Virus record (IMG/VR): IMGVR_UViG_3300037963_001909
Coordinates: 1-20,736 of that record
DNA length: 20,736 nucleotides
Direction: 5' to 3' (one strand)
Source: a virus
Shown here in pieces: positions 1 through 20,736 of the stretch. The position numbers were made by a program, and so were the translations under genes. Numbering within the stretch: the first letter of the stretch is position 1; each line of letters starts with the position of its first letter. The notes beneath the pieces are model-generated. The model did not search any database and had not been told where the DNA came from. It saw nothing but the letters and a program-made list of their open reading frames with translations.

Positions 1-123
1 TCCATCAGGTCCCTCCATAGAATCCTGGACAACAAATACCGTGCACGAAACCGGCAGTCTGGACGTTGGATCATCCATCCAAGATTGGACACGTCCGGTG
101 CGAGAAATTACTGAGGTGGTCAT
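1..123 (-). CDS. Ribonucleotide reductase, N-terminal fragment (runs off the window)
   Basis: The frame opens with ATG at 123 and stays open to base 1 (41 codons), so only the N-terminus is visible. Residues 25-38 read VSCTVFVVQDSMEG. A cysteine (C27) followed seven residues later by Asp-Ser resembles the block around the first redox cysteine of ribonucleotide reductase catalytic subunits (SCxxxxxxDS). The protein starts only about 25 residues before this block, so it lacks the long N-terminal region and ATP cone of cellular enzymes, as I recall for the short enzymes of T7-like cyanophages. The start overlaps the stop of the MazG-like gene by 4 bases (ATGA), implying coupled translation. The role would be making dNTPs from host ribonucleotides. 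The class, probably B12-dependent class II, cannot be judged from this fragment. Confidence 0.6.
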   Translation of the reverse strand, partial: MTTSVISRTGRVQSWMDDPTSRLPVSCTVFVVQDSMEGPDG

Positions 124-464
124 TCGATAATCAGATCAAGAAGATGTGGTTCTTTATAGTTTGGTCCCTTCAGGACTTTGCCGTCTGCACGGTAGATAGG
201 TTTGCCATTGTCATCCAACTTAGACATGTTAGATTCATGGACCCGACGCATGGCTTCGTCAAGGTCCCACTCCTGTGATGCAGCAAACTGGTAGCAAACA
301 TACACAAGGTCTGCTAGTTCTTTGAGCTGATCACAATCATCTTTCATGTGGTAGGCCTCATGGAACTCAGACCATTCCTCATCGATCAAAGCTTTCTGTA
401 TGCCTCTTTCCGCTACCCCAGTCATCAACATATACGCTGAGCGGAACTGTTCGGCCATCGTCAT
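120..464 (-). CDS. mazG: MazG-like nucleotide pyrophosphohydrolase
   Basis: This is an all-alpha NTP pyrophosphatase candidate of 114 residues. It shows the metal-binding pattern EExxE (E29, E30, E33) followed by ExxD (E49, D52). The C-terminal part has the phage-type stretch NMSKLDDNGKPIY...KVLKGPNY. Such enzymes hydrolyse (d)NTPs or alarmone-like nucleotides and occur in many cyanophages. The start is uncertain: ATGs at 464 and 458 give a plausible N-terminus, ATG 491 adds nine residues, and an upstream extension to 578 would run deep into the preceding gene in another frame. None has a good Shine-Dalgarno sequence. With start 464 it overlaps the DUF3310 gene by 86 bases. Its 3' end is coupled to the reductase gene by ATGA. 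Confidence 0.8.
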   Translation of the reverse strand: MTMAEQFRSAYMLMTGVAERGIQKALIDEEWSEFHEAYHMKDDCDQLKELADLVYVCYQFAASQEWDLDEAMRRVHESNMSKLDDNGKPIYRADGKVLKGPNYKEPHLLDLIIE

Positions 465-669
465 CAGGCTGCGATGAATGTAGGAGTTCATTTTCAAGGT
501 AGTGGATAGCTTTTTTAAGGTCTTGAGTCTTTGTGTCAGGACTTTTGAAACCGGCTCTGCAAATATATTTAATAGCATTGCCGAGATGGTAGTTGAGTTC
601 TTGGTCTCTAATGAAATCCCATACTTCTATTGATCCTCGGGTGTAGTGAGAAGGGGATTGTTGGGCCAT
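379..669 (-). CDS. DUF3310 protein, T7 gp1.7-like (nucleotide kinase family)
   Basis: This protein of 96 residues has the DUF3310 core at its N-terminus. HYTRGSIEVWDFIRDQ is followed by LNYHLGNAIKYICRAG and then by the helix DLKKAIHYLENEL. The family includes T7 gp1.7, a nucleotide kinase affecting dTMP/dGMP use. The conserved part ends near residue 62. The tail, rich in Asp, Gly and Ser, overlaps the MazG-like gene in another frame. The start ATG at 669 lies inside the end of the NblA-like gene (43-base overlap). In T7 gene 1.7 lies between the polymerase-ligase region and gene 2; here it sits after the exonuclease in a nucleotide-supply cluster. Domain identity is confident, but kinase activity is inferred from T7. 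Confidence 0.82.
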   Translation of the reverse strand: MAQQSPSHYTRGSIEVWDFIRDQELNYHLGNAIKYICRAGFKSPDTKTQDLKKAIHYLENELLHSSQPDDDGRTVPLSVYVDDWGSGKRHTESFDR

Positions 670-869
670 TGTTTAACTAAGTTTGAAACAGTATTCGAAA
701 GGCAGAAACACTGCCGTTGTAGCGCAATAAAAACAGTAATTAGATCTGCTTTATCCGCTTGTGGTAGCAAGTCTTCAAGCCTCCTAAGTTTGAACTGCTG
801 TTCCATTGTTAGTTCCACTACTGGTGGTGGTGGGAAGCCAGGGGATGACTCTCCGTTCGACTGCATCAT
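627..869 (-). CDS. nblA: NblA-like phycobilisome-degradation adaptor candidate
   Basis: The protein has 80 residues. Residues 20-68 match the NblA pattern without gaps as I remember it: LTMEQQFKLRRLED, then a helix, then LQRQ and NLVKQW, compared with LSLEQEFKLR...ED...RQ...LLKH in NblA. Cyanobacterial NblA directs the phycobilisome antenna to Clp protease, and phage copies are known. The N-terminal 19 residues are Pro/Gly/Ser-rich. A start at internal Met22 would leave too little before the conserved block, so the ATG at 869 (next Met at 866) is preferred. It overlaps the end of the exonuclease gene by 86 bases and the start of the DUF3310 gene by 43. The central helix departs from NblA (ADKADLITVF) and residues for phycobiliprotein contact cannot be verified by eye. 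It could be a cyanophage family that only resembles NblA. Confidence 0.55.
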   Translation of the reverse strand: MMQSNGESSPGFPPPPVVELTMEQQFKLRRLEDLLPQADKADLITVFIALQRQCFCLSNTVSNLVKQWPNNPLLTTPEDQ

Positions 870-1539
870 AGTTAGTGTGCTGTAAGATTTTTGCGAGACG
901 TGCGTTCATCAACGCAGTGTCTTCATCCAATTCTTTGGACTCAAATGCTTTGACGACTGTCTCCCATGTGTAGCCTTCCTTTTCCAGCAAGTCGATGGCA
1001 CGTTTGACTCCAATGCCGGGCACGCCTGCGTAACCATCGGTCTGGTCACCGGCTAGTGTCTGCACAAGATGCCAACGCATACCCTCTTCCTCTGTGATGT
1101 CCACAGTTTCTTTAAGGTCGTACAACTTGCCAGGAATCTGACGCATATCTTTGTCAGGACTGACGATAATGTTGCCAGGCTCGTGCGTTGCAAAGATACC
1201 CATGGCATCGTCTGCCTCAAGCTCATCGATGCGTACGACTTTGTAGAAGGCACTAAGCTCGTTAATTACACGGCGGTAACCACAGGGCTTTTTACGGTTT
1301 CGGTGACCCTTGTAATCGGGGTAAATTTTTTTCCTAAAATTCTTAGAGTCACTGAAAAACAGCACAGGCTCTGCATTAAAAAACTCAGAACGAATCTTCT
1401 CAATGTCACGTTCAACAGAACGGTAGGCTTCGCTAAACCTGCTGACCACAGTGATCACATCATCACCCCAGTCAATCTCAGACTCTGCTGCAGCACAGCA
1501 CTTGTAGACAATGAAGTCAGCGTCAATGAGCAGTTTCAT
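784..1539 (-). CDS. 5'-3' exonuclease, T7 gp6-like (FEN family)
   Basis: The protein has 251 residues. FEN/5'-nuclease metal sites are visible in order: LLIDADFIVY at the N-terminus, FRKKIYPDYKGHRNRKK in the middle, IDELEADDAMG, IIVSPDKDMRQIPG, and the helix-hairpin-helix region LAGDQTDGYAGVPGIGVKRA. In T7 this enzyme removes RNA primers and degrades host DNA to supply nucleotides. The ATG at 1539 overlaps the stop of the LAGLIDADG ORF by 4 bases (ATGA). The C-terminus (Ser/Thr/Asn-rich) overlaps the NblA-like gene. Length is a little below T7 gp6 (about 300 residues), but all expected acidic motifs are present. Confidence 0.93.
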   Translation of the reverse strand: MKLLIDADFIVYKCCAAAESEIDWGDDVITVVSRFSEAYRSVERDIEKIRSEFFNAEPVLFFSDSKNFRKKIYPDYKGHRNRKKPCGYRRVINELSAFYKVVRIDELEADDAMGIFATHEPGNIIVSPDKDMRQIPGKLYDLKETVDITEEEGMRWHLVQTLAGDQTDGYAGVPGIGVKRAIDLLEKEGYTWETVVKAFESKELDEDTALMNARLAKILQHTNYDAVERRVIPWLPTTTSSGTNNGTAVQT

Positions 1540-1979
1540 TTTTTAGAGTGGTACCAGGAAAAGAATTGGTCGGCCTTAGCACGACGACGGTCATGCATGT
1601 ATGGGTAAAATCTGATAACCAAATCATAAATTGTTTTACGAGCACCTGTCTTCCACACACCAGAAGGCTTGTGGTTTTCTTTTCTAGAAGGTTTTTTACG
1701 CAAACCATTGAGGTTTCCTACAAAACCGATGGCTTCATAATATGACCACAACACATCCATGTCGGTCATTTCAACACTCATTTCCCATTTGTCTTCAGTT
1801 GTACAATAACTAAGACAGCCTTCGCCTTCAAAGATGCCGATGGCCCAGGCAAACGGATCAGTGAACGTCAGCCCAATTGTGTCCCTCTTTTGCTTCAGCA
1901 GCGATTGGTACGCGGAGATTGTAGTATTGTCCGGCTCGTCTTGCGGATTCGAGTAGGCATTCTGAAAGATACTTTGCAT
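1536..1979 (-). CDS. LAGLIDADG-type homing endonuclease ORF (start uncertain)
   Basis: A single LAGLIDADG-like helix is seen in DPFAWAIGIFEGEGCLS, with the acidic residue in the usual EGEG context. It is followed by a basic region (LRKKPSRKENHKPSG) and YPYMHDRRRAKADQF. One motif implies action as a homodimer. The frame overlaps the 3' end of the DNA polymerase gene in a +1 frame. ATG 1979 gives 147 residues but puts about 40 codons inside the polymerase gene and has no Shine-Dalgarno. The domain itself begins near the polymerase stop at 1858. An in-frame ATT (about 1876) follows AAGAGGG by 5 bases and would be an unusual start. The stop overlaps the exonuclease ATG. The family is a mobile gene that often cuts essential phage genes; the neighbouring DNA polymerase is the natural target guess. 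Confidence 0.75.
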   Translation of the reverse strand: MQSIFQNAYSNPQDEPDNTTISAYQSLLKQKRDTIGLTFTDPFAWAIGIFEGEGCLSYCTTEDKWEMSVEMTDMDVLWSYYEAIGFVGNLNGLRKKPSRKENHKPSGVWKTGARKTIYDLVIRFYPYMHDRRRAKADQFFSWYHSKK

Positions 1980-3132
1980 TTTTAGGGTGGGTTTCGTACT
2001 GCAATTCGTCGTGGATAAACGCAAGCTGGTGACAGTCGATGTCTTTTAAAGACTCGTTTGTCAATACCATCCAGCGTTTTGCGATAACACCGGCCCCTGA
2101 CTGGAGCAGGTAGTTCAGCGATTTATGTTGGCTTTCGACCTTGATAGATCTGCCGTCAATAGATTTAACGTAGCCTTTTTTACTTGACTTCTTTATAGCC
2201 TTAAGCAATTCTGCAAGGCCATCAATAGCAGAAACAAATGCCTCTCTAATTTCTGCCCCTTTCTTTTTAGCTTCATCTTCTTTTAGGGAAGAGTCAAAAG
2301 AGAGTCCGATTTTGGCATTGCCTGCTCCATAGAGGAAGGCATAGCTGATGGTTTTGACGGCACGCCTTGAGATCCCAATCCGGTCGGCATTAACTTGGTG
2401 AATGTCGCCATTGAGGAGAATATCCGCGTAGCGACCCCCGTCATAGCGTGCAAGGTAATGAGCGAGCATCCTAAGTTCAATACCAGCAAGGTCAGCACCA
2501 ACCATGATGTAGTTGGGCGTTGCTTTGAACAGTTGTCTACAGTCATGATCAGAAGGTACCTGACTTAAATTTGGTTTACGGTGTGCACATCTATGCGTAT
2601 TAGTTGCAACTGAGCAGTGGTGATGTATGCGGCTAGCAGTCGTACATAGCTTCAGCCATGCGTTCATGCCTTCCGAGATCATCCCCAATTTCTTTGTAAT
2701 AGTTAGACACTTCAGAAAGTCCTCTGCAATCGTAATCCCACTTGCAGCAACTTCCTTTAGTACAGTCTCGTCGATCAGGACTTTGCCTGTCGGTGTATGT
2801 TGTGTCGGCTCCCATTTGTAATGCTCTTGTAAGCACCACGCTATGTGATCACGTGATACAGGATTGAATTCGGTGGTGCGGGTGAATGTTGCTCCGGCAA
2901 TATACCCGTAGCGTCGGTTATTTGCTTTAGGAGTAAATTCCGATCGTGGGTAGAAAGGATGCCGGTTTTGTAGTAACTGACAAGTTTCTTCAAGCTCTCT
3001 TCTGAGAGCAGATGACAGTTGCCATGCAGAGCGTTCATCAAAATACCATCCATGAAGTTCCTGTTCGGTGAGGATTTTTGCTACTTGGTGCTCAAGTAAG
3101 ACCCATTCAGGTAGCGGTGGAAGTGGTCGCAT
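1858..3132 (-). CDS. DNA polymerase, family A polymerase domain (second part of a split gp5)
   Basis: This carries the palm/fingers/thumb part of a T7 gp5-like enzyme. Motif A is VGADLAGIELRMLAHYL (catalytic Asp), motif B is RRAVKTISYAFLYGAG (Lys and Tyr of the O-helix), and motif C is AFIHDELQ. The C-terminus NWADVH matches the usual end of the family, so the 3' end is complete. Homology starts at LPEWVLLEHQVAKILTEQE, which in T7-like enzymes directly follows the exonuclease domain. Here that domain is encoded in another frame. ATG 3132 is the only ATG just before the homologous part. The same frame is open upstream to a GTG at 3189, overlapping the exonuclease ORF by 109 bases. Neither start has a clear Shine-Dalgarno, so a -1 frameshift from the upstream ORF is also possible. 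Confidence 0.92.
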   Translation of the reverse strand: MRPLPPLPEWVLLEHQVAKILTEQELHGWYFDERSAWQLSSALRRELEETCQLLQNRHPFYPRSEFTPKANNRRYGYIAGATFTRTTEFNPVSRDHIAWCLQEHYKWEPTQHTPTGKVLIDETVLKEVAASGITIAEDFLKCLTITKKLGMISEGMNAWLKLCTTASRIHHHCSVATNTHRCAHRKPNLSQVPSDHDCRQLFKATPNYIMVGADLAGIELRMLAHYLARYDGGRYADILLNGDIHQVNADRIGISRRAVKTISYAFLYGAGNAKIGLSFDSSLKEDEAKKKGAEIREAFVSAIDGLAELLKAIKKSSKKGYVKSIDGRSIKVESQHKSLNYLLQSGAGVIAKRWMVLTNESLKDIDCHQLAFIHDELQYETHPKNAKYLSECLLESARRAGQYYNLRVPIAAEAKEGHNWADVH

Positions 3133-3620
3133 AGTTTGCGGGTGACGTTGACATCTTGTATGCAGTAATCTTGCATTTCTTGGCTCCACTCCTTCCAGTC
3201 AGCGGTCTTACCAAAGTTGCCTTTGTACTCATTCAACCTATAACCGTAAGATTCAAGTGAATGCCTACCGTATAGCTGTGATGGCATCATGTCGAACTTG
3301 TGTTTCATATCAACGTCGAGCATATCTGTGTGATACAGACGTGACAGAAGCAAAGTGTCTACAACCAGGGCGGTTGGTGAGAACCACGGGTAAATTTTAC
3401 TGAGGCAAGGAATGTCATACCCGATAATGTTGTGACCCACAATGATGTCAGCATCTTCGAGCCGTTGGACACCCCGGGTAAGCGGTTCAGCATCACCCTG
3501 ATCGTTGTAAACAATCGTAGTGTCAGTCTCTTGCTCGTAGATAACAAGGCAATGGATGCAGGTAACATCATGTAGCAGGCCGTTGCTTTCTAGGTCGAAC
3601 ACTAGAGTGGTTCCAGACAT
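3081..3620 (-). CDS. DNA polymerase 3'-5' exonuclease domain (first part of a split gp5)
   Basis: This encodes the proofreading domain of a T7 gp5-like polymerase (179 residues). The three Exo motifs are intact: FDLESNGL near the N-terminus (Asp, Glu), DADIIVGHNIIGYDIPCL (Asn and Asp), and DYCIQDVNVT (Tyr and Asp). HSLESYGYRLNEYKG between them is typical of the family. After CDHFHRYL the frame leaves the homologous sequence, runs ten more codons and stops at 3081. The expected continuation (PEWVLLEH) is in the -1 frame. ATG 3620 places the Exo I motif at residues 8-13 as in T7; a GTG at 3644 would add eight residues. The gene begins 50 bases after the primase/helicase stop. It may act as a separate subunit or be joined to the polymerase by frameshifting. 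Confidence 0.88.
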   Translation of the reverse strand: MSGTTLVFDLESNGLLHDVTCIHCLVIYEQETDTTIVYNDQGDAEPLTRGVQRLEDADIIVGHNIIGYDIPCLSKIYPWFSPTALVVDTLLLSRLYHTDMLDVDMKHKFDMMPSQLYGRHSLESYGYRLNEYKGNFGKTADWKEWSQEMQDYCIQDVNVTRKLCDHFHRYLNGSYLSTK

Positions 3621-3654
3621 AGGTCTTGTCAACGAATTGTGCACGTTTTACCAT
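3568..3654 (-). CDS. Possible 28-residue ORF between helicase and DNA polymerase
   Basis: An ATG at 3654 opens a frame of 28 residues beginning MVKRAQFVDKTYVWN and ending at 3568 inside the exonuclease gene. The same frame is open upstream across the helicase stop and reads GPPNPPTPE just before the ATG, a composition that looks more protein-like than random. No Shine-Dalgarno precedes the ATG. The upstream frame is +1 relative to the helicase gene. It may be a real micro-protein, an extension of the helicase by frameshift, or chance. Confidence 0.22.
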   Translation of the reverse strand: MVKRAQFVDKTYVWNHSSVRPRKQRPAT

Positions 3655-16257: not shown

Positions 16258-16980
16258 TTACTTGCGAACAAATTTACCGTTTTTGAAGACCATTACAGGA
16301 CCAAAAGGCTTTTTATAGGTGTCACCTTCTTTCGGATTCTTCGGTGGGTTCATAGGATGACCACCATAAGGTTTTTGTGTGAACTGAACTTTACGTTCAC
16401 GTCTTGCCGCTGCTGCATTAGCTTCACGCAAGTTGCGTGCTGCTGCTGCTACACGTGGGTCTTTATTCACACGTGCTCTGCTACCACCACGACCAGGCTT
16501 TCGCGTTACCGTTGGTGAAGGAGGATTGCTTTGACGGAATCGACCAGTAGTACCAGGTGTTGTTCCTTGACGCATCCCTTTGGGATTACTTGGCATAGAC
16601 TGACCGTATGTGCCAGTTCCAGGCTTGCCGTCACGTCCAGTGCCGGTGTTTGGCTTAGACTTTTGTACAGCAGGCTTAGCTTTTTGCTGCGGTTTTGCTT
16701 TCGGTTTTGCTTTCGGCTTTGGTTTTGGATTAGCCAAACTTTGTCCAGCTTTCACCATAGCTTTGTACTGCTCAAAGATTTTTTTTTGAGCTTTAGTGGG
16801 GTTTTTGAGCTTAGACATGTTTGTCTTTGCCCAGGTAAACATGGCAGCAGACAATTTTTTACTACTGCTAGCTGGCTTGCCTTGAGACATGTTTGAAATT
16901 TTCTGGGCATTTGCTTTTTCTTTTGCCGTTGGTTTGCCCAGACCAAAATCAGAAGGTTTTTTCTTTTCGTAACGTGCCAT
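16258..16980 (-). CDS. Lys/Pro-rich basic protein
   Basis: The protein has 240 residues. The N-terminal helical part (residues 1-85, KLSAAMFTWAKTNMSKLKNP) is followed by a KPKPKAKPKAKPQQKAKP repeat, a Gly/Thr/Pro-rich stretch, an Ala/Arg helix (DPRVAAAARNLREANAAAA) and a basic end (GPVMVFKNGKFVRK). It pairs with the next gene in charge and layout and may derive from a similar ancestor. The ATG overlaps the HNH gene stop (TAATG). It is possibly a DNA-binding structural protein; no family can be named. Confidence 0.72.
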   Translation of the reverse strand: MARYEKKKPSDFGLGKPTAKEKANAQKISNMSQGKPASSSKKLSAAMFTWAKTNMSKLKNPTKAQKKIFEQYKAMVKAGQSLANPKPKPKAKPKAKPQQKAKPAVQKSKPNTGTGRDGKPGTGTYGQSMPSNPKGMRQGTTPGTTGRFRQSNPPSPTVTRKPGRGGSRARVNKDPRVAAAARNLREANAAAARRERKVQFTQKPYGGHPMNPPKNPKEGDTYKKPFGPVMVFKNGKFVRK

Positions 16981-17309
16981 TACTTAATGTGAGATAAAAT
17001 TAGAGTTTCTCTTAGACGGTTAATACCGAATGTTGCTCTCATCCACGAGAGCCAATTGTTACTTCCTTTGTCCTGATTACACGTTTTGCAGCAAGGGACG
17101 AGGTTACTTGTAATATCTTCTCCACCAAACGTTTTAGGGTGGACGTGGTCAAGTGTAAGTTCGTGTAATTCATAGGTCTCTCCACAATAAACACATGTGC
17201 ATCCAAAGTGTTCTTTGATGCTGCGCCTCCAAAGGCGCTTGGCTTCGGAAGACGTCATGGTTATTAGGTTGTAAATGTAATGATCAGGAGTAGGAAGTAA
17301 AGGAGTCAT
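16980..17309 (-). CDS. HNH endonuclease
   Basis: The protein has 109 residues. It has the ββα-metal HNH core CVYCG...LTLDHVHPKTFGGED, NLVPCCKTCNQDKGS, with zinc-binding CxxC pairs and the catalytic histidine in LDHVHP. ATG 17309 overlaps the previous stop (ATGA); an inner ATG at 17258 (MTSSEAKRLWRR) is also plausible and gives the more typical N-terminus. HNH enzymes close to terminase genes can help packaging-linked cleavage, or they may be free-standing homing genes. In cyanophages similar proteins are usually regarded as mobile. Confidence 0.88.
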   Translation of the reverse strand: MTPLLPTPDHYIYNLITMTSSEAKRLWRRSIKEHFGCTCVYCGETYELHELTLDHVHPKTFGGEDITSNLVPCCKTCNQDKGSNNWLSWMRATFGINRLRETLILSHIK

Positions 17310-19376: not shown

Positions 19377-19615
19377 TCAGTAGGAAGGACAGCAGTACCA
19401 GCGGTAATAGCAGCATTGAATGGTGCAAGATCTTCGGTAGTCCAGAAGTCTTTAGCAACCATAAGTTCAAGGTGCTCAACGTTACGACGAACAGTATCAA
19501 CCTGCTCACTATCACGCTCAGACAGAGCAACCAGTTCGTTAATCAGAGTGACGCTATCGCCAGCAGCTTTATAGTGTTGAGCAATTTCAGCAACAGTAAG
19601 AGTTTCTTCAGACAT
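19373..19615 (-). CDS. Small helical protein downstream of the tail fibre
   Basis: The protein has 80 residues beginning MSEETLTVAEIAQHYKAAGD. It is predicted as helical, with INELVALSERDSEQVDTVRR, NVEHLELMVAKDFW and APFNAAITAG. The start at 19615 overlaps the fibre stop by 8 bases; a longer frame to 19699 would overlap the conserved S74 domain. I recall similar short proteins next to cyanophage fibres, possibly fibre-associated, but no function is known. Confidence 0.72.
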   Translation of the reverse strand: MSEETLTVAEIAQHYKAAGDSVTLINELVALSERDSEQVDTVRRNVEHLELMVAKDFWTTEDLAPFNAAITAGTAVLPTE

Positions 19616-20736
19616 TTGATTTAAGAGTTTCGATTTCAGATTTAAGATCTTTGATTGCCTGTACAAGGACAGGAATGAGTTGCCCGTAGGCAGCTTCAAG
19701 TCGGTCAGGATTAGAATCCATAACCATCTTCAGGTATTCAGCATCAGAGGTAGACTGGGCAGCTTGCAGATCTTGAGCAATAAAACCAGCATCGTAAGTA
19801 CCATCTTTACCGTTACCATCACGGGTGTCCCATTTAAATTTAACGGGACGGAGAGTATCAATAAAGTCAAGACCCAAAGGCAGGTCTTCTACTTCAGTCT
19901 TGTCACGACCATCAGACAGGCTGCTAATGGTTTGGGTGTTACAACGCAGCGTTGAAATGCTGTTGTTACCAAGAGTGACTTCTTCGTTAGCAGTGTTAGA
20001 ACTCGGAGTTGCGCTCTTGCCAATAACAATTAGATTGTAACCAGTCGTTATACTTGATCCAGCACTCCAGCCAATTAAAGTGTTGTCATAACCAGAAGTA
20101 ACGTCTTCACCAGCATGATTACCGACAGCAACATTATATCGGTTAGTAGTCGCAGGAGAATCTCCCATAAGGGCTTGATAGCCAATAGCAACGTTGCCAT
20201 CACCTAATGCATAGTATCCAGCGTAATCACCTATGTAGCAATTAACACTGTGCGTAGTATTTGAATAACCAGTTTTATAACCGATAAAAACGTTGCTACC
20301 GCCAGTCGTGTTGGATTCTCCAGAGGATCTGCCTAAAGCTGTGTTATAGGTACCAGTAGTGGTTTGTTTAAGTGCATCAGTACCGATTGCTACGTTGTTA
20401 CTAGCGGTAGTAGCAAGCTCCATGGCGTCACTACCCATTACAACGTTGCCACTACCAGTGGTAAGAGTAGGCATTGACTGCCTACCAACAGCAGTGTTGT
20501 AATTGCCCTCAGTTACTGAGCCGCCAGAATTGTGACCTACAAACGTATTTTCAAATCCTGTAGTTACTGCATCTCCAGTTTTCCAACCTATAAATGTATT
20601 AGAAGAACCGGTAGTAACTAATTTACCAGCTTCATAACCAATGGCTGTGTTGTTAGATGCAGTGCTGCTTCCACTCTGGCCTTGAAGAGCAAAATAACCA
20701 AAGGCTACGTTGTTAGAACCTGTTTGATAGCTAGCA
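19608..20736 (-). CDS. Tail fibre with beta-helix repeats and S74 chaperone domain (5' end missing)
   Basis: The frame is open to the window edge, giving 375 residues without a start. The upstream part is a series of about 20-30-residue repeats of the form N-x-(V/T)-x-(I/V/F)-G-x-x-(A/S)-G...TTG, e.g. NTAVGRQS, NVVMGSDAME, NVAIGTDALK, NTALGRSSGE, NVFIGYKTGY, NTLIGWSAGS. This is typical of trimeric left-handed beta-roll or helix fibres. The last 115 residues form a peptidase S74 intramolecular chaperone: SLSDGRDKTEV (Ser/Lys dyad), LDFIDTLRPVKFKWD, YDAGFIAQDLQ, then a coiled-coil end. S74 domains assist trimer folding and cut themselves off. It probably recognises the host surface. Confidence 0.9.
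   Translation of the reverse strand, partial: ASYQTGSNNVAFGYFALQGQSGSSTASNNTAIGYEAGKLVTTGSSNTFIGWKTGDAVTTGFENTFVGHNSGGSVTEGNYNTAVGRQSMPTLTTGSGNVVMGSDAMELATTASNNVAIGTDALKQTTTGTYNTALGRSSGESNTTGGSNVFIGYKTGYSNTTHSVNCYIGDYAGYYALGDGNVAIGYQALMGDSPATTNRYNVAVGNHAGEDVTSGYDNTLIGWSAGSSITTGYNLIVIGKSATPSSNTANEEVTLGNNSISTLRCNTQTISSLSDGRDKTEVEDLPLGLDFIDTLRPVKFKWDTRDGNGKDGTYDAGFIAQDLQAAQSTSDAEYLKMVMDSNPDRLEAAYGQLIPVLVQAIKDLKSEIETLKSNV

Follow-up and report, generated by a model that had tools for sequence, protein, structure and literature searches.

The open reading frame at positions 627-869 of the window (the whole 20,736-nucleotide stretch of DNA analysed here) very probably encodes a phage NblA, a ClpC adaptor that would direct the host phycobilisome to degradation by the Clp protease. 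Judged from its sequence, the protein most likely induces breakdown of the light-harvesting antenna by the Synechococcus host itself. The assignment is based on family membership, a predicted helical hairpin, conservation, purifying selection and a fixed place beside the exonuclease gene. The source of the window is an uncultured marine T7-like cyanophage, and the gene is already known in kind, as NblA of marine T7-like cyanophages has been described before. The gene and its neighbours are as follows.

627-869, minus strand: nblA, an 80-residue open reading frame from ATG, predicted NblA-family proteolysis adaptor with its core at residues 19-67
784-1539, minus strand: T7-like 5'-3' exonuclease (PF02739/PF01367), a conserved neighbour in phage records
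379-669, minus strand: DUF3310 protein (PF11753, E = 5.9e-16), termed 'nucleotide kinase' in some records
120-578, minus strand: nucleotide pyrophosphohydrolase of the MazG/PRA-PH type (PF01503, E = 2e-9; PF03819 sub-threshold)

Coding status and family membership

The coordinates given in the first-pass annotation are exact; the gene lies on the minus strand, whereas no strand had been named there. The frame is maintained in about 90 fetched loci, and conservation among the relatives extends to the core and to the start (M[MT]..G.PPPP). For pairs with computable dS, dN/dS amounts to about 0.03-0.12 over 37 codons (residues 30-66) which overlap neither neighbouring gene. The open reading frame is a real gene under purifying selection. 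No structured RNA was found at the start of nblA, and Rfam gave no match anywhere in the window.

Pfam-A assigns a single significant family to the product, NblA (PF04485), with E = 1.7e-8 and 35.2 bits at a curated cut-off of 25; the profile search proposed in the first-pass annotation is thus significant and above the cut-off. Residues 19-67 match profile positions 1-49 of 50 with equal lengths and apparently without gaps, in agreement with the 49-residue core that had been aligned ungapped to a remembered consensus. A chance match to NblA is rejected on the Pfam E-value, dN/dS and the conservation of the frame. PHROG 27006, for which no function is listed in PHROGs, matches the 80-residue product with E = 5.5e-20 as well as 10 of 10 tested phage orthologues, and can be named NblA-like. 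The NblA equivalog model of NCBIfam (NF045916) gives 23.7 bits (E = 4.2e-5), far under its cut-off of 100 bits. By sequence comparison the protein is therefore homologous to host NblA, although NF045916 does not permit naming it an equivalog.

Both single-sequence and profile searches place NblA entries first among solved structures. The single sequence finds PDB entry 3cs5 at E = 0.0017 and a 30-sequence profile finds 3cs5 at 1.3e-4 and 1ojh at 0.023; in sequence, the resemblance to structurally solved host NblA is modest. Compared with cyanobacterial NblA (PF04485; 1ojh, 2q8v, 2qdo, 3cs5), the core of about 49 residues, its EQQF start, the hairpin helices and two aligned residues described below are shared, whereas a Pro-rich N-terminal extension (PPPPVVEL), a 12-residue tail and low identity in the middle of the core are peculiar to the window protein.

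Predicted structure and proposed mechanism

The AlphaFold2 monomer is a two-helix hairpin with helices at residues 22-37 and 40-66, which bears out the hairpin part of the fold anticipated for NblA in the first-pass annotation. Block-mean pLDDT exceeds 90 over residues 21-60, while the N-terminus and the tail are of low confidence. A Foldseek search of the model against the PDB returned 0 matches, which is uninformative for a hairpin as short as 45 residues, and similarity in fold thus rests on the hairpin and the secondary structure itself.

In the alignment with 1ojh, Leu51 and Lys53 of the Anabaena protein correspond to Leu64 and Lys66 of the window protein. Both Anabaena residues were reportedly found by Bienert et al. 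in 2006 to be needed for phycocyanin binding, and from the alignment we take Leu64 and Lys66 to be their counterparts. Leu64 is invariant in both alignments. Lys66 is present in at least 90% of the alignment of IMG/VR relatives and is replaced in some Synechococcus phages, namely by Thr in S-TIP37 and by Ser in S-CBP1 and S-CBP4.

In the proposed mechanism, phage NblA would be produced alongside the replication genes, in mid infection as the first-pass annotation suggests, and, judging from its family, would dimerise, with its C-terminal end binding phycobiliproteins of the host antenna and another face binding ClpC. Delivery of the phycobilisome to the Clp protease would then free amino acids and lower light capture during infection. 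Two reviews describe NblA as a dimer that links phycobiliproteins to ClpC (PMC7966870, PMC7760959). Cyanophage NblA is described as inducing phycobilisome loss when expressed (PMC9602691), and in many oceanic cyanophages NblA is stated to degrade the light-harvesting complexes of the host (review PMC12892361).

Genomic neighbourhood, distribution and annotation

The nblA gene sits between the T7-type exonuclease and the DUF3310-MazG pair; its 5' part shares 86 bases with the 3' end of the exonuclease gene, and its 3' part overlaps the DUF3310 gene. The T7-like replication module recognised in the first-pass annotation is confirmed by Pfam, which finds the exonuclease, DUF3310 and PRA-PH/MazG proteins together with DNA polymerase A, a T7-type primase-helicase, endonuclease I, T7 RNA polymerase and T7 terminase. 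The nearest record by DNA is the uncultured phage MedDCM-OCT-S28-C3 (86%), followed at 70-73% by podoviruses of Synechococcus, among them S-SBP1 and S-TIP37. The closest isolates infect Synechococcus, and marine Synechococcus is, from these isolates, the most likely host.

Several further features of the window are located on the minus strand. The DNA polymerase is encoded in two overlapping frames, 1858-3189 and 3081-3644 (3'-5' exonuclease part and polymerase part); the same is noted in the records of S-TIP37 and P-SSP7 and represents either a split gene or a programmed frameshift. Between DNA polymerase and exonuclease, a 162-residue open reading frame (1536-2024) resembles a LAGLIDADG-type homing endonuclease by eye (AIGIFEGEGCLSY); a Pfam search at E 0.01 gave no match for it. 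A free-standing HNH endonuclease (PF14279, PF01844) is encoded at 16980-17309. A tail-fibre-like protein at 19608-20735, cut by the window end, carries a C-terminal S74 intramolecular chaperone domain (PF13884).

A scan of IMG/VR found 219 relatives, 80 of which were fetched. The window protein is 100% identical to the copy of one IMG/VR contig and 87.5% identical to that of MedDCM-OCT-S28-C3. Among the 39 deposited phage records listed by tblastn, 37 were retained, all of them cyanophages or uncultured marine phages; the two weakest matches, a Vibrio phage and an Achromobacter phage (E = 5-7), were rejected as chance. Altogether nblA occupies the same slot in 37 deposited cyanophage records, including S-TIP37, S-RIP2, S-CBP4 and others, and in over 200 contigs of IMG/VR; frequently it lacks annotation or is labelled "hypothetical". 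It has no annotated CDS in S-TIP37, S-RIP2 and MedDCM-OCT-S28-C3 and is 'uncharacterized' or 'hypothetical' in P-SSP7 and S-CBP4. It may be missed so frequently because both of its ends overlap the neighbouring genes. In S-RIP1 (L097:1989-2220) a frameshift splits nblA; since that record's exonuclease is fragmented too, a sequencing error is as likely as a pseudogene.

The gene is absent from the T7-like isolates 9515-10a, NATL2A-133 and S-TIP28, where the exonuclease is followed directly by a DUF3310-type gene, identified by eye from a shared 'G.I.VWDFI.DQ.L' motif. The phages lacking it at the same slot mark nblA as an accessory gene with a fixed place. Such a place, adjoining and overlapping the exonuclease, would also suit a nuclease or replication accessory serving that enzyme, whose likeness to NblA had arisen by chance in a small helical hairpin, and chance matches are possible for short helical proteins. 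This function is nevertheless highly improbable, given a single significant Pfam family, NblA entries as top matches among solved structures, and these three isolates, which carry the exonuclease without nblA in the slot. Under the NblA assignment preferred here, no essential difference from known T7-like cyanophage NblA is seen: family, phage group and slot are the same. A prediction of nblA in 14 cyanopodovirus isolates is attributed to Nadel et al. (2019) in PMC9602691, and viral NblA in the ocean is the subject of Nadel et al. (2025, Nature 648:434), as cited in PMC12892361. NblA of the freshwater cyanophages Ma-LMM01, MaMV-DC and PaV-LD has the same proposed role but belongs to different phage types; in PMC9602691 freshwater cyanophage nblA is described as causing phycobilisome loss on expression and as phylogenetically remote from the cluster formed by marine podoviruses.

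The scan of cellular-genome contigs yielded four loci, in two Prochlorococcus assemblies (L092, L094), a Flavobacteriales MAG (L093) and a Planctomycetota MAG (L095). The first three resemble T7-like phage NblA by sequence and were thus not taken as evidence for host genes. The NblA-like open reading frame of the Planctomycetota MAG (L095:2971-3280; MSELPFPVTELTMEQQFKIAAL...) possibly lies on a misbinned cyanobacterial or phage contig. Across 201 genomes of the family to which the genome with L094 (G001) belongs, PF04485 gave 4 matches, 1 of them above the cut-off. The nblA-like gene described for Synechococcus WH8102 is divergent (PMC7439483), and these comparisons accordingly gave no usable host outgroup for the phage gene.

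Orthologues in Prochlorococcus phages

Orthologues at the same slot are found in P-SSP7 (L083:3004-3315), whose host is given as MED4 in PMC3350473, and in P-SSP3 and NATL1A-7; among the loci carrying Prochlorococcus-phage orthologues are L084, L085 and L096, the last being P-GSP1. PF04485 fails to recognise the three copies tested (P-SSP7, P-SSP3 and NATL1A-7). They are matched by PHROG 27006 and by the alignment profile, an alignment which contains these sequences themselves. Position 66 is Glu or Gln in the P-SSP and NATL1A types, and the orthologue of P-GSP1 (host MED4) is more divergent still, with neither the EQ motif nor the terminal Trp. When Synechococcus-phage copies are compared with Prochlorococcus-phage copies, identity of the nblA core falls on average 9 points below that of the exonuclease; the gap is about 0 among Synechococcus phages and 7 among Prochlorococcus phages. 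As the compared pairs are non-independent, these gaps are a description and not a test. Purifying selection on the P-SSP7 type is strong (dN/dS 0.05 between P-SSP7 and contig L092 of a Prochlorococcus assembly), which indicates that the gene is maintained there.

According to PMC7439483, Prochlorococcus has neither phycobilisomes nor nblA. In its phages, orthologues persist at the same locus, with P-SSP7-type copies constrained; those tested lie outside PF04485 and resemble the Synechococcus-phage copies less than the exonucleases resemble each other. This would fit a divergent NblA-type ClpC adaptor with a substrate other than the phycobilisome, for instance a photosystem, a regulatory protein of the host or a remnant phycoerythrin. 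For the window protein itself such a substrate is unlikely: this copy scores above the PF04485 cut-off, retains Leu64 and Lys66, and is closest to phages whose hosts bear phycobilisomes. Moreover, the copy of S-B28, a phage of Synechococcus, likewise fails PF04485, so that divergence also occurs outside Prochlorococcus phages. The suggestion in the first-pass annotation of a divergent adaptor with another target is therefore not required for the window copy, in which the counterparts of both Anabaena residues are present, and possibly applies to the Prochlorococcus-phage orthologues. Host and sequence type map imperfectly, as seen from S-B28 and from P-SSP2, whose record gives Synechococcus as host. 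Tentatively, and with rather less than even probability, the Prochlorococcus-phage orthologue may have persisted under purifying selection with a changed target, as a ClpC adaptor for another protein of the host; the window copy would then represent the phycobilisome-directed form.

With the window protein as a phycobilisome-directed NblA, one more marine phage lineage would be added to those dismantling the antenna of their host, and a probable function would be given to an unannotated open reading frame and to PHROG 27006. The review PMC12892361, citing Nadel et al. 2025, puts the effect at as much as 5% of photosynthetic light capture worldwide.
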